The notes under the pieces were generated by a model, which saw only the letters and a list, made by a program, of their open reading frames with translations, ran no database searches and was not told the origin of the DNA. 11,078 nucleotides of DNA from Thermodesulfobacteriota bacterium (GTDB taxonomy: Bacteria > Desulfobacterota > BSN033 > UBA1163): NCBI GenBank assembly GCA_030024065.1, contig JASEIE010000108.1, forward strand, positions 1-11,078, given 5' to 3'. Below are positions 5,209 to 9,807 of the stretch, piece after piece. A program made the position numbers and the translations under genes. Every line of letters begins with the position of its first letter. The stretch's first letter is position 1.

Positions 5209-5296
5209 ATGATCATCCCTCCTCAATCTTCATGTCAGATTTATTGACCTCACGCCCCCTTTTCTGCTAACTTGATAACAATACGAAACGAAATAG

Positions 5297-5319
5297 GTAG
5301 CCGCAGGCTTCAGCCTGCG
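5297..5319 (+). repeat. REP palindrome upstream of the RAYT gene
   Basis: GTAG foot (5297-5300) followed by the perfect stem CGCAGGCT (5302-5309)/AGCCTGCG (5312-5319). A GTAG tetranucleotide next to an imperfectly or perfectly palindromic stem is the known hallmark of REPs recognised by RAYT transposases. It ends 13 bp before the transposase start codon, so in mRNA the hairpin sits just ahead of the translation start. Confidence 0.85.
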
Positions 5320-5332
5320 ATGAATTCATTTT

Positions 5333-5818
5333 ATGGCTGCCATAAGAGAACAAATACATCGATTATCCCCCACATTATATCTCGGTCAAATTGCTATCTC
5401 TTTTACTGCTTGCATTAAAGGAAGAATACCTATTTTAAATGATATAGAAGTCTTCGACGCTTTAACAAAAATTCTTATTGAAACGTTGAAACGATGGCAC
5501 TGTGATGCCCATGTTTTCCTCTTTATGCCTGACCATTGTCATCTTTTGATCCAGGGTAAAAGGGACGAGTCCAACCTTCTTGGCTTTATGAAGGATTTTA
5601 AGCAGAGGAGTGGATATTGGTTTTCCCAACGCAGCCTGAAGGCTGCGGCTACAGTAAAATGGCAGAAAGATTTCTATGACCACATCCTCCGCAAAGATGA
5701 AGACGTTAAGGTCCAGGTAACATACATTCTTAAGAATCCTATTAGTCGGGGATTAGTAAATGACTGGAAGGAATATCCATTTAAAGGTTCAACCATTTAC
5801 AGTTTTGACGGATGGTAA
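5333..5818 (+). CDS. REP-associated tyrosine transposase (RAYT, Y1/HUH family)
   Basis: A single-strand DNA nuclease/transposase of the IS200-like Y1 group, thought to mobilise REP palindromes. In its 161 residues the HUH metal site is HCH (68-70) within LFMPDHCHLLIQGK. The tail FYDHILRKDED...VTYILKNPISRGLVNDWKEYPF matches the RAYT C-terminus, with Y131 the likely nucleophile. GTAG-footed REPs lie on both sides. Residues 100-107 (RSLKAAAT) are encoded by a further REP copy lying in the gene. No clear ribosome site precedes the ATG. It is more AT-rich than the neighbouring liv genes, consistent with transfer. With HUH and Tyr present, it looks intact. Confidence 0.88.
   Translation: MAAIREQIHRLSPTLYLGQIAISFTACIKGRIPILNDIEVFDALTKILIETLKRWHCDAHVFLFMPDHCHLLIQGKRDESNLLGFMKDFKQRSGYWFSQRSLKAAATVKWQKDFYDHILRKDEDVKVQVTYILKNPISRGLVNDWKEYPFKGSTIYSFDGW
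5630..5652 (-). repeat. REP palindrome inside the RAYT coding sequence
   Basis: On the - strand it has a GTAG foot (CTAC at 5649-5652 on +) and a stem CGCAGCCT (5630-5637)/AGGCTGCG (5640-5647) with a 2-nt centre. It is the same family as the REP at 5297 but in opposite orientation. It lies in phase with the reading frame and adds no stop, encoding residues 100-107 of the transposase. Confidence 0.82.
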
Positions 5819-5843: not shown

Positions 5844-5899
5844 GTAGCCGCAGGCTTTAGCCTGCGTAACGCATCTCGCAACCCGAGGGTTGCGGCTAC
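5844..5899. repeat. Head-to-head REP pair (BIME-like) downstream of the RAYT gene
   Basis: The first REP (+) has GTAG 5844-5847 and stem CGCAGGCT (5849-5856)/AGCCTGCG (5859-5866). The second (-) has stem CGCAACCC (5877-5884)/GGGTTGCG (5887-5894) and CTAC at 5896-5899. The convergent pair with a 10-bp spacer is the classical form of a REP doublet (BIME/REPIN). It fills most of the space between the transposase and the next gene. Confidence 0.85.
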
Positions 5900-5933: not shown

Positions 5934-8243
5934 ATGGGAATGCTACCTCTAAAAGTCTCTCTTCTTATCATGGGGGCAAGCGGCATTGTTGCCCAGATCG
6001 TCCTCCTGAGGGAACTCCTCATCTCTTTCCTGGGAAACGAACTCACCCTCGGCATCATCCTCGCCAATTGGCTGATCCTCGAGGCAATCGGCTCCTTCAT
6101 CGTTGGAAAATCTGTGGAAAAGGTGAAAAGGAAGATGGAGGTCTTTGTCTCCCTCCAAATTTTTTTCTCAGTGGCTCTTCCCTTTTCCATCTACCTCTGC
6201 CGGACATTTAAGAACATCCTTCTCACCACCCCGGGAGAGGGACTCGGTTTTATTCCCATCTTTTACTCCTCCCTTCTCATCCTTCTTCCGGTCTCCATTT
6301 TCCACGGCGCCCTTTTCACCTATGGGTGTAAACTCTACGCTCTGTATTCGAAAGAGGAGGCTTCCTCCATCGGAAAGGTCTATGTCTTTGAAACCGTAGG
6401 CTCCATCATCGGCGGCCTACTCATCACCTTCCTTCTGATTCAATATTTCAATTCCTTTCAGATCGCCTTCATGGTCTCTTTGCTCAATGCCATCATCTCA
6501 GTATTCCTCCTCTGGCCAGAACAGGCGAAACTTGTTCATCTCCGAAAGGGACTCTGGATTCTTTCCATCCTCTACACTTTTCTCTTTCTCTATCTCCTGT
6601 TTACGCCGATATCTGAGAAAATACATCGCTCTTCTATTGAATCTCAGTGGAGAGGGTTAAATGTCATCCACAACGAGAACTCCATCTATGGGAACATCAC
6701 CGTTACCAAAAGAGGCGAGCAATTTACCTTCTTTACGGATGGGATCCCGTCCATCACCACGCCTGTCCCTGACATCGCCTTCATCGAAAACTTTGTTCAC
6801 TTCTCCATGCTCCTCCACAAAAAGCCTGGATCGGTTCTCATCCTGAGCGGAGGAGCCGGAGGAATGATCAATGAGATATTAAAATATCCGGTGGCACGTG
6901 TGGATTATGTCGAGCTCGATCCTCTCCTTCTCAAGCTCATCCATCGGTTTCCGACCCCCTTAACCCAATCCGAACTTTCCGATGAGAGGGTGAATATCCA
7001 TTATACGGACGGCCGCTTCTTCGTCAACCGGACTCCGGATCGTTTTGATCTCATCTTCATCGGACTCTCAGCCCCACATGAATTGCAGACCAACAGACTC
7101 TTCTCGTCCGAATTTTTCTCCATGGCCAGAAGAAAGATGAACCCCGGGGGAATCATCGTCTTAACCCTTCCGGGTTCATTGACCTACATCAGTCCGGAAT
7201 TGAGAGATCTCAATGGATGCATTTGGGACACCCTGAAGAGCGTTTTTAAGTATGTGAGGATCATCCCCGGCGATGTCAATCTCTATTTTGCTTCAGACTC
7301 CGAAAAGCTATTAGGAGTGACCTCCGGGGAAATGCTTAAACGTCTCGAGGAGAGAAAGATCAAAACGAATCTCTTTACGAAAAGCTATGTGGAGTACCGG
7401 CTCCATGAAAGGTGGCTCAACTGGTTTTTAAAATCGATGGAAAGAAAAGAGGTTCACATCAATTCCGATTTCAGACCCCTTGGCGTCTTTTTCAATCTTT
7501 CCTACTGGAATGCCCTCTTCTCCCCTTATCTCACAAAGGTATTTAAGTGGTTTGAAGGGTTGAGTCTCGCTCTGATCATCGGTCTGACCGCTCTCCCTAC
7601 CCTTTTTCTCGCCATCCTTTTTGTCCGGAGACCCCTCCTCTCCAGGTACTCTCTTCCCTATGCCATCTTCACATCCGGTTTCGTCGATATGATGCTTAAC
7701 CTCGCCATCATCTTCACTTTTCAAACCCTTTACGGCTATCTTTATCATCAGATCGGGCTTTTAATTACCATCTTCATGGTGGGCATTGCGCTCAGCAGCT
7801 TCTTCATCACCCGGCGACTAGATCGAATCAAAGAGGGTTATCTTCTCTTTTTGGGAACGGAATTGTCGATCATCCTCTTCTCCATCATCCTGCCCTTTAT
7901 CCTCTCCATCCCCTCCCATTATCTCGAAAAAACGTACGTCTATGTTCTCCTCTATGCGACCTTTTTGACCATGTCTTTCCTCTGCGGCGCCCTGGTTGGA
8001 CTCCAATTTCCACTGGCAACGAAGATCTACATGAAGATCCACCTCAGGGAAGGGATGATTGGCCACACAGCGGGTTTACTCTATGGAGCGGACCTTCTGG
8101 GTGGATTCTTCGGAGGGCTTTTAGGAGGCATCCTTCTCTTTCCCATTTTGGGCCTGAAAGATTCCTGCTTCATCATGGCAATAATCAAAACAAGCAGCCT
8201 TACTCTACTCCTTATCTTCATGAAAATCCATAAGTCCAAATAA
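5934..8243 (+). CDS. Membrane-embedded spermidine synthase-like protein
   Basis: A polytopic inner-membrane protein of 769 residues with a spermidine/spermine synthase-type Rossmann domain between two membrane blocks (about 1-225 and 543-765, perhaps six to seven helices each). The soluble domain (about 245-500) has VLILSGGAGG (301-310, where SpeE has GGGDG), VELDP (326-330; the acid E327 that contacts the nucleoside is kept), TDG (358-360), NPGGIIVLTLPG (403-414) and NSDFRP (510-515). The active-site stretch equivalent to SpeE DxxDP reads G377-L-S-A380-P, so both aspartates are missing. Relatives are annotated as fused MFS/spermidine synthase. Aminopropyl transfer is doubtful; the true substrate is unknown. 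No good ribosome site; ATG at 5940 is an alternative start. Confidence 0.8.
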   Translation: MGMLPLKVSLLIMGASGIVAQIVLLRELLISFLGNELTLGIILANWLILEAIGSFIVGKSVEKVKRKMEVFVSLQIFFSVALPFSIYLCRTFKNILLTTPGEGLGFIPIFYSSLLILLPVSIFHGALFTYGCKLYALYSKEEASSIGKVYVFETVGSIIGGLLITFLLIQYFNSFQIAFMVSLLNAIISVFLLWPEQAKLVHLRKGLWILSILYTFLFLYLLFTPISEKIHRSSIESQWRGLNVIHNENSIYGNITVTKRGEQFTFFTDGIPSITTPVPDIAFIENFVHFSMLLHKKPGSVLILSGGAGGMINEILKYPVARVDYVELDPLLLKLIHRFPTPLTQSELSDERVNIHYTDGRFFVNRTPDRFDLIFIGLSAPHELQTNRLFSSEFFSMARRKMNPGGIIVLTLPGSLTYISPELRDLNGCIWDTLKSVFKYVRIIPGDVNLYFASDSEKLLGVTSGEMLKRLEERKIKTNLFTKSYVEYRLHERWLNWFLKSMERKEVHINSDFRPLGVFFNLSYWNALFSPYLTKVFKWFEGLSLALIIGLTALPTLFLAILFVRRPLLSRYSLPYAIFTSGFVDMMLNLAIIFTFQTLYGYLYHQIGLLITIFMVGIALSSFFITRRLDRIKEGYLLFLGTELSIILFSIILPFILSIPSHYLEKTYVYVLLYATFLTMSFLCGALVGLQFPLATKIYMKIHLREGMIGHTAGLLYGADLLGGFFGGLLGGILLFPILGLKDSCFIMAIIKTSSLTLLLIFMKIHKSK

Positions 8244-8322
8244 GGGCAAGGCTTCAAGGGGTGAAGGAAGGTTAAAGGGTAAGAGGCCAATCTGAAAAAG
8301 TTGGCTGTTGAGTATCTCGGAT

Positions 8323-8430
8323 ATAAATCCAGCACCTTCCTGCGGGGTATTAAACCCCGCAGGAAGATTATCTTAAGCCATTCATCCCCGCAGCAGAGCT
8401 GCGGGGTATTCTGGAAGGTGCTGGATAAAT
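8323..8430. mobile_element. 96-bp MITE-like element with terminal inverted repeats and target duplication
   Basis: Perfect 12-bp terminal inverted repeats CCAGCACCTTCC (8329-8340) and GGAAGGTGCTGG (8413-8424) enclose two hairpins. These are CTTCCTGCGGGGT (8336-8348)/ACCCCGCAGGAAG (8354-8366) and CCCCGCAGC (8386-8394)/GCTGCGGGG (8398-8406). ATAAAT flanks the element on both sides (8323-8328 and 8425-8430) as a probable target site duplication. TGCGGGGTATT is repeated directly inside (8341, 8400). It codes for nothing and lies between the membrane protein and the convergent vapC gene, where the hairpins could also stop transcription from both sides. Confidence 0.7.
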
Positions 8431-8502
8431 ATTGGGGAACTTCTGAAATGAGCAGGGGTGTTTCTACGCATCCACTGGATTGCTTTGATCTGATCGCAGA
8501 GA

Positions 8503-8859
8503 TCAATACGCCAATCCCAGTTTTGAGGAAACTTCGCTCAGTTTCTTATCAAGTGTCCACAGGTGGGCCTTGGTTAAGATAGCGGAAGCAAGCAAATGCA
8601 CATCAATGTACCCTAAACCCTTTCCCATCAGACTATAATTTTCTAAGAACTGAATTGCTTCTTCATGTTCTAAATGCATTGCCATAGGCAACGCATGTAG
8701 AAGGGAAAGTATTTCAGACCTGTTCCCGAGATTCCCACACGCAAGCTCACCGACGACGAACGAATGACAGAGAACGTGTCCCTCATTCAACAGCGCCTCA
8801 AGCCCAATGGTTCCATCTCTCAGATGCGCAACCCACACTGAAGTGTCAACAAGAACCAT
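8503..8859 (-). CDS. vapC: VapC-type PIN-domain toxin
   Basis: Predicted type II toxin ribonuclease of 118 residues. The PIN acidic set is visible: D5 (MVLVDTSVW), E38 (VVGELACG), D86 (GYIDVHLL) and D104 (TLDKK), so the Mg-dependent RNase centre looks complete. VapC toxins cut tRNAs or rRNA; which target this one uses cannot be told. It starts one base after the vapB stop (TGAAATG), with GGAG nine bases upstream inside vapB, a coupled arrangement that keeps antitoxin synthesis ahead of toxin. Confidence 0.92.
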   Translation of the reverse strand: MVLVDTSVWVAHLRDGTIGLEALLNEGHVLCHSFVVGELACGNLGNRSEILSLLHALPMAMHLEHEEAIQFLENYSLMGKGLGYIDVHLLASAILTKAHLWTLDKKLSEVSSKLGLAY

Positions 8860-8860
8860 T

Positions 8861-9058
8861 TCATGTTTCTCCGTTCCTTCTGCGACGAATCATCTCCAAT
8901 TTTTTTTCGGTCCCACCCAATTTGGCGAGTCTCTTACCGCTTTCCCTTGCTATCAGTGCTTCGAGACCGAGCCTGACCAGAGAGGTTTTTTCCTTAATGC
9001 CGGTTAACTTTGCTGCCTTGTTGAGCAATTCATCTTTTATATTTAAGGTTGTTCTCAT
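8861..9058 (-). CDS. vapB: VapB-type ribbon-helix-helix antitoxin
   Basis: Antitoxin of 65 residues that should bind VapC and repress the operon. The N-terminal MRTTLNIKDELLNKAAKLTGI is the DNA-binding strand and first helix of the VapB/Arc type, and the basic C-terminal half (EKKLEMIRRRRNGET) would wrap the toxin. The frame is open 13 codons further upstream to an ATG at 9097, but AAGGAGG six bases ahead of the ATG at 9058 fixes the start; the longer form would also run through the promoter. Confidence 0.9.
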   Translation of the reverse strand: MRTTLNIKDELLNKAAKLTGIKEKTSLVRLGLEALIARESGKRLAKLGGTEKKLEMIRRRRNGET

Positions 9059-9078
9059 GAAATCCCTCCTTAAGAAAT

Positions 9079-9114
9079 ATGCATTATTATGCATCAATGA
9101 TATGGTATTGTCAA
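9079..9114 (-). promoter_or_regulatory. vapBC promoter and palindromic operator
   Basis: On the - strand, TTGACA (9114-9109), a 17-bp spacer, and CATAAT (9091-9086). The palindrome ATGCAT-AATA-ATGCAT (9079-9094) covers the -10 box and probable start point and is a natural site for autorepression by VapB/VapBC. The expected leader is about 20 nt and carries the AAGGAGG site. Confidence 0.65.
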
Positions 9115-9209
9115 GAAGGGTTCAATGGTTTGACATGGGAAATGTGAAGAGAGAAGAGAGGGGGGAGCTTCTATTATCAATCCCAGATTTGATACCTTTT
9201 GCTATCCCG

Positions 9210-9515
9210 CTAACAAACGGCTTCCCTCAAGGGACGCACTTCACGTGCCACCTTTTCGGACAACGCATCTTCGGCAATATCCATATCATACCGACTTTGC
9301 AGGTTTATCCAATAGCGGGGGTTTTGCCCAAAATAGCGCCCCAGACGCAAGGCAAGCTCCGCTGTTACCGGACGTTTACCATTTACAACGTGATTGATAC
9401 GCATAGCGGGCACGCCTAACTCCCTGGCGAGTCGGTATTGTGTTAATTTTAATTCGTCAAGCAACTCCTTTAGATATACCCCAGGGTGTACTGGAGAAAT
9501 ACGCTTTTTGTTCAT
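9210..9515 (-). CDS. higA: HigA-type XRE antitoxin
   Basis: Antitoxin of 101 residues from the HigA/VapI family. It opens with MNKKRISPVHPGVYLKELL, the family signature, and carries an XRE helix-turn-helix at about 24-48 (LTQYRLARELGVPAMRINHVVNG). A hydrophobic/aromatic toxin-binding tail GQNPRYWINLQSRYDM follows at 63-78. The start is fixed by GAGGAGG five bases ahead of the ATG; the frame is open upstream into higB but in another phase. Ten bases separate it from the end of higB, the toxin-first order typical of hig loci. Confidence 0.93.
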   Translation of the reverse strand: MNKKRISPVHPGVYLKELLDELKLTQYRLARELGVPAMRINHVVNGKRPVTAELALRLGRYFGQNPRYWINLQSRYDMDIAEDALSEKVAREVRPLREAVC

Positions 9516-9525
9516 GCCGACCTCC

Positions 9526-9807
9526 TCAGTGATAATCGACGATTTCAACCTGTTCTGCATTAGCACTGCGCCATTCAAAACAAATACGCCACTGATCGTT
9601 AATACGAATGCTCCATTGCCCTTTACGTTTTCCCTTCAAAGCCCCAAGTCGGTTTGATGGCGGTAGACCTAAATCTTCAATCTGAGTTGCCGCATCGATC
9701 GCATTAAGTTTCATAAAGGCACGCTGCTGAATGTCATGTGGAAACTTTCGGGAAAATTGGCGGCTGAATATTTTTCTGGTTTCACGGCAACGGAACGACT
9801 TGATCAC
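9526..9807 (-). CDS. higB: HigB-type RelE-fold toxin
   Basis: Ribosome-dependent mRNA interferase of 93 residues. MIKSFRCRETRKIF at the start, GLPPSNRLGALKGKRKGQWSIRINDQWRICFEW in the core (about 47-79, split by the usual family turns) and the C-terminal VEIVDYH with the conserved terminal His93 identify HigB. The start codon is GTG; no later Met keeps the conserved N-terminus. There is no ribosome site, and the -10 box ends only six bases before the GTG, so the message may be leaderless. Confidence 0.92.
   Translation of the reverse strand: MIKSFRCRETRKIFSRQFSRKFPHDIQQRAFMKLNAIDAATQIEDLGLPPSNRLGALKGKRKGQWSIRINDQWRICFEWRSANAEQVEIVDYH

Follow-up and report, generated by a model that had tools for sequence, protein, structure and literature searches.

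Palindromic repeats can be tolerated within reading frames, as in the Rickettsia palindromic elements. The parts of Di Nocera et al. (2013; PMC3733652) covered here, which mention these elements, describe intragenic GTAG/CGTC REPs in uvrA, recB, dnaE2 and other genes. In the main-text parts of Quentin et al. (2018; PMC6006769), REP insertions that leave the frame undisturbed are reported for tnpAREP genes of subclass 2.4, generally between the HuH and Y motifs in a peripheral region; the subclass 2.4 insert is described as variable and located between beta3 and alphaC, and REP insertion is termed unique to 2.4, with REP insertion also stated for some 2.7/2.8 members. The presence of a REP in frame within the gene of its own transposase, the central claim for the locus described here, is therefore known in kind. 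REPs at the alphaC-beta4 link of other subclasses are not mentioned in the main-text parts covered, and the sections of PMC2817692 and PMC3686654 covered hold nothing on REPs inside RAYT genes.

The window, the whole stretch of 11,078 nt that was analysed, contains a RAYT (TnpAREP) gene at 5333-5818 on the plus strand, encoding 161 amino acids. The product scores 88.7 bits against the NF047646 REP_Tyr_transpos profile (cutoff 80) and matches PF01797, and the top structural match of its predicted fold is 4er8 (E 6e-11). Its HuH motif is H68-C-H70 (DHCH), with Cys as the middle residue u, which is absent from the residues listed in the main text of PMC6006769, and Y131, within YILKNP, is the probable catalytic tyrosine. 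H68, H70, Y131 and N135 are invariant, and P136 nearly so, in an alignment with its relatives. Genes resembling those of an ABC transporter of the branched-chain-amino-acid or urea type (with scores under the family cutoffs) lie on one side and a fused MFS/spermidine-synthase-like gene on the other. Past the end of the latter is a 20 nt inverted repeat (8321-8340 and 8413-8432; 90% complementary, 72 nt between), and the region 8503-9807 on the minus strand holds a gene resembling VapC, whose match is below cutoff, and a HigA-family antitoxin gene that exceeds the TIGR02607 cutoff, the latter adjoined by a small gene that has no NCBIfam match and that we take to be HigB-like. No relatives of this RAYT were found in viral contigs, and a search of plasmids returned four records, at 29-37% identity.

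GTAG-foot REPs occur on both flanks of the gene (n=3), at 5297-5319 (plus strand), 5844-5866 (plus) and 5877-5899 (minus). The first of these stops 13 nt short of the RAYT start codon, and its hairpin could thus affect translation. A fourth REP of the same family lies within the gene at 5630-5652 on the minus strand and consists, as read on the plus strand, of the stem arm CGCAGCC, the loop TGAA, the arm GGCTGCG, a single G and CTAC, or GTAGCCGCAGCCTTCAGGCTGCG on the minus strand. On the plus strand its first base is that of codon 100, and together with the base that follows it encodes RSLKAAAT (codons 100-107). All four copies follow the pattern GTAGCCGCA-xxx-loop and have the GTAG foot, perfect stem and short loop of the GTAG REP family; at one mismatch or fewer the pattern has between 1 and 93 matches per genome in eight other genomes. 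The sixth stem pair is swapped between the internal and 5' flanking copies, with pairing intact. The original prediction of an in-frame REP of the flanking family, carried without breaking the enzyme, is thus borne out at the sequence level, where neither the frame nor the HuH and Y-NP motifs are disrupted. The stem, given there as a perfect 8 bp, is indeed perfect, but measures 7 bp around a 4 nt loop, an eighth pair requiring an inner T-A pair and a 2 nt loop.

RSLKAAAT is an insertion relative to the RAYT profile. We measured the link between the GYW-type motif and the next WQK (or LQK) in the best 120 of 165 homologues plus the window, of which 119 of 121 sequences could be parsed. The link is 9 residues long in 99 of the 119, longer in 18 and shorter in 2; that of the window has 13, four above the usual length, in agreement with the expectation that related RAYTs have a shorter link. 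Because the length is fixed at 9 in most sequences and greater in the clade containing the window, the link there is, as judged from these alignments, a derived insertion. Close relatives of known DNA sequence that lack it (L001, L032 and L042) have SKN plus five residues at this position. The RSLKAA sequences form one clade in a tree built with the link masked (ultrafast bootstrap 100), with weak deeper nodes and the insert-free P0013 placed among inserted sequences, and RSLKAA is unchanged in P0002-P0005, which are 74-89% identical to the window.

In a test for REP-coded peptides, eight sequences (window, P0002-P0005, P0011, P0020 and P0050) scored 7/7 and three (P0001, P0006 and P0089) 6/7; among 441 control windows drawn from these proteins, eight reached 6/7 and none 7/7. 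P0007 reached just 5/7, and P0008, P0010, P0012, P0014, P0015, P0017 and P0075, all with long links, scored 3 or 4. Since several long links lack a convincing REP match, such links need not come from REPs; that of P0075 looked REP-like by eye and was rejected at 3/7. The P0006 link, QAKACAY, reads as a REP in another frame, the P0011 link (CSRNLYGCG...GVKPAAT) fits two REPs in opposite orientation, and so does that of P0046 (QAKACGY...GSRNLQVA), judged by eye outside the scored table. For P0001-P0008, P0010-P0012, P0046, P0050 and P0089, REP content was deduced from the peptides alone.

REPs within RAYT genes recur elsewhere. A GTAG REP lies within 500 bp of 72 of the 170 distinct RAYT genes collected from genome loci. 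Of these 72, a non-random sample obtained by homology searches and partly from loci picked by REP pattern, 12 (window included) contain a REP that matches one of their own flanking copies at three or fewer mismatches (11/71 without the window). All codon-shuffled controls (10 per gene, 720 in total) had at least 6 mismatches to their own flanking REPs, the best having 6 and the window 2. The copies lie in loop 1, between beta1 and alphaA (L014, L016, L018, L047 and L039), or in the alphaC-beta4 link (window, L028, L056, L060, L085, L216 and L237); internal sites of L046 (5 mismatches) and L235 (6, a value within the range of the controls) are in the same two loops and look like decayed copies. 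L014, L016, L018, L046 and L047 align closely (an alignment, not a tree) and probably reflect one common event. The link cases other than the window belong to a distant 2.2-like group (DHLH, YIHYNP) with REPs of GTAGGGTGGGC or GTAGGGTGCGC type. In a midpoint-rooted tree of this group, from which L216 is absent, link REPs occur in the clades {L237, L235} (support 92) and {L028, L056, L060, L085} (support 81) and genes without link REPs lie between them, implying two acquisitions, or one with losses. A generic REP scan gave an internal site in 7/133 RAYT ORFs, and such sites arose in 5/2,660 codon-shuffled RAYT genes; the L005 site, with 9 mismatches to its own flanking REPs, was dropped as chance.

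Among the best 120 of 7,928 relatives of L028, a set enriched in REP peptides because the query itself has a REP, 37 have a link that matches the REP peptide template in reverse orientation, two of which (P0252 and P0279) look forward-oriented; eight matches fall outside the scripted link range, at least two of them (P0222 and P0242) still being link peptides. P0175, P0176 and P0182 each contain the REP peptide in two or three copies, which would correspond to REP pairs or triples. REPs of forward orientation in P0250, P0252, P0275, P0279 and P0283, read from peptides alone, were not counted because the forward and reverse templates overlap. Individual loci show further arrangements. About 80 extra loop-1 residues in L039 (1260-1510) consist of REP copies and fragments (VGQGFTKH, VGQGFSPA) with the frame open, and at RAYT codons 30-45 of L047 the 5' part of a REP (GTAGCC + CCA or TCA) is repeated in frame, with a compensatory stem pair. 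The RAYT gene of L052/L053 (G351:C202), which has a loop-1 REP, is interrupted by an unrelated insertion, and L002 has identical 28 nt palindromes ending in GTAG and CTAC (5273-5300 and 6138-6165), which resemble the double-foot REPs of Quentin et al. (2018).

As a baseline for other genes we used the 2.4 Mb genome G060, which has 58 REP pattern matches. Of 53 REPs inspected, from 45 loci, 11 are in an open frame with at least 25 codons on either side. Four of the 11 hosts were searched against Pfam and all four were recognised (L165, L170, L174 and L187; MptE-like, queuosine synthesis, Eco57I-type methylase and SelA); the remaining seven were judged doubtful by eye. With four recognised genes per genome, the per-gene rate is far below the 12/72 for RAYT genes, the two samples having been drawn differently.

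In the AlphaFold model of the window RAYT (pLDDT 90.9), residues 100-110 are mostly coil and lie between helix 82-99 (alphaC) and strand 115-119 (beta4); the block 101-110 (pLDDT 69) is the least confident stretch besides the two ends. The REP peptide has the same predicted position in the model of the 2.2-like L028 RAYT (pLDDT 84.8), between helix 66-84 and strand 106-115, where the pLDDT of the blocks is about 63. A loop is therefore predicted, as the proposed structural check envisaged, but to describe it as a remote surface loop would go too far, since RSLKAAAT ends two residues before W110-Q111. The main text of PMC6006769 lists W94, Q95 and R104 of the E. coli enzyme for GTAG recognition, the role of W94 being unclear, and by spacing these correspond to W110, Q111 and R120.

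In some relatives the RAYT sequence breaks off at or near the REP peptide. P0050 equals P0004 at 105/107 residues (98% identity) through RSLKAATT and then stops two residues later, the more diverged P0089 leaves the RAYT family after the REP peptide, and the L051 RAYT is cut short at the link, where there is a REP. This fits deletion between an internal REP and a downstream REP in the same orientation, and in the window the REP at 5877-5899, 247 bp from the internal copy and oriented alike, would be suited to such an event.

We consider it probable that the internal REP is a tolerated passenger in a permissive loop, favoured by nearby REPs and a possible deletion endpoint. An ancestor of the RSLKAA clade would have gained a copy of a REP of the flanking family within its RAYT gene, in frame in the alphaC-beta4 loop, which lengthened the link by four residues, with enzyme activity presumably unharmed; the copy may have been kept because the loop tolerates extra residues. 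Potential donors are present on either side of the gene, no more than a few hundred bases away, and since REPs of this family are also open in some frames, RAYT genes would be expected to collect their own REPs more than other genes do. The internal copy would be mainly a passenger, and either recombination or RAYT cleavage involving it and the same-orientation downstream REP could yield a truncated enzyme.

In our view it is unlikely that the internal REP has been preserved for regulation, with the protein attaching to the hairpin formed by its own message or single-stranded gene and thereby restraining its synthesis, a form of the self-regulation that the original prediction suggested. The copy does retain the GTAG foot and a perfect stem, as well as those loop positions (TTNA) that were found to be important for the Marinomonas enzyme (PMC8266576, in the parts covered), and the RNA around it folds better than 200/200 shuffles (z -3.1), as would be expected of any such hairpin. 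Preservation of the L047 stem by a paired change and the tendency of internal copies to match their own flanks point the same way, neither being required of a pure passenger. For six 2.2-like genes the internal copies are nearer their own flanks than expected (6/720 permutations as good); this is carried by L237 and L216, the L060 and L085 copies giving ties between own and other loci's flanks, that of L028 being slightly closer to L085 flanks and that of L056 closer to flanks of other loci. Gene conversion, recent insertion and selective maintenance fit this resemblance alike. However, the perfect internal palindrome is not always kept: the foot is changed in L016, the stem is lost in L046 and one stem mismatch is present in each of L056, L060 and L085, although the flanking REPs remain perfect, and the foot of P0005 appears lost, judging from its peptide. 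Moreover, in 60 of the 72 RAYT genes with flanking REPs, an internal copy at three or fewer mismatches is absent. A broader proposal, that RAYT genes in several subclasses repeatedly gain a copy of their REP in either of two fixed loops, where its match to the flanking REPs is maintained, such that the gene is itself a substrate and cuts at internal and downstream REPs truncate it as a built-in limit on REP spread, also seems to us improbable.

We think it more doubtful still that the encoded peptide itself matters by changing REP recognition. The idea draws on the position of the link next to the segment associated with GTAG reading (W-Q...D/E-H..R), as the short distance to W110-Q111 and the E. 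coli residues listed above illustrate; in addition, insertions between alphaC and beta4 in subclasses 2.2/2.6 are described as close to REP recognition (PMC6006769, main text), a role in binding REP stems has been proposed for helix alpha3 and the part of the protein downstream of it (PMC8266576, in the parts covered), and RSLKAA is identical in P0002-P0005. Against it, the link peptides of relatives vary in length, frame and sequence, and model confidence falls at the link. A chance palindrome in an ancestral peptide, or an assembly artefact, can be dismissed as extremely improbable, given that just 24 of 110,592 synonymous encodings of RSLKAAAT produce the internal stem plus CTAC, that the match to the gene's own flanking REPs is far closer than in the codon shuffles, which together speak against an accidental palindrome, and that the relatives P0001 and P0002 represent 41 and 47 member sequences, making assembly error unlikely.

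The tolerated REPs mark where a domesticated HuH transposase accepts natural inserts, and indicate that REP colonisation of RAYT genes extends beyond subclass 2.4. Such cases let REP movement or recombination be read off the enzyme gene itself, and whether RAYTs act on their own genes is now directly testable in vitro.

As in subclass 2.4 (PMC6006769, main text), the window has a REP in the gene of its own enzyme, between HuH and Y and with the frame kept. Unlike the variable beta3-alphaC insert of that subclass, it lies between alphaC and beta4, after helix 82-99 and before strand 115-119, and the protein has DHCH and YILKNP where subclass 2.4 has NH[IFV]H and YIxNNP. The WQ motif with D in place of E100 (W110, Q111 and D116) is the feature given for subclasses 2.5/2.7 in the same main text; YILKNP deviates from their Y motif (YI[VI]ANP or YI[LR][NQ]NP), and we therefore place the protein near, not in, these subclasses. 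By these motifs, the window case differs from known ones in both subclass (2.5/2.7-like) and site, and further sites beyond 2.4 are the alphaC-beta4 link of the 2.2-like genes and the beta1-alphaA loop. The E. coli TnpAREP bound to a REP hairpin (4er8) shares the fold of the window model (TM 0.72) and the W-Q segment at 20% identity, but has a shorter link in the aligned stretch. The REPs of Di Nocera et al. (2013; PMC3733652, in the parts covered) are likewise in frame in coding genes, including same-site REPs in two recB genes, but the hosts named there are uvrA, recB, dnaE2 and others, not RAYT genes. The hosts of the Rickettsia palindromic elements are also other genes, unlike the window REP, which resides in the gene of its own element's enzyme.
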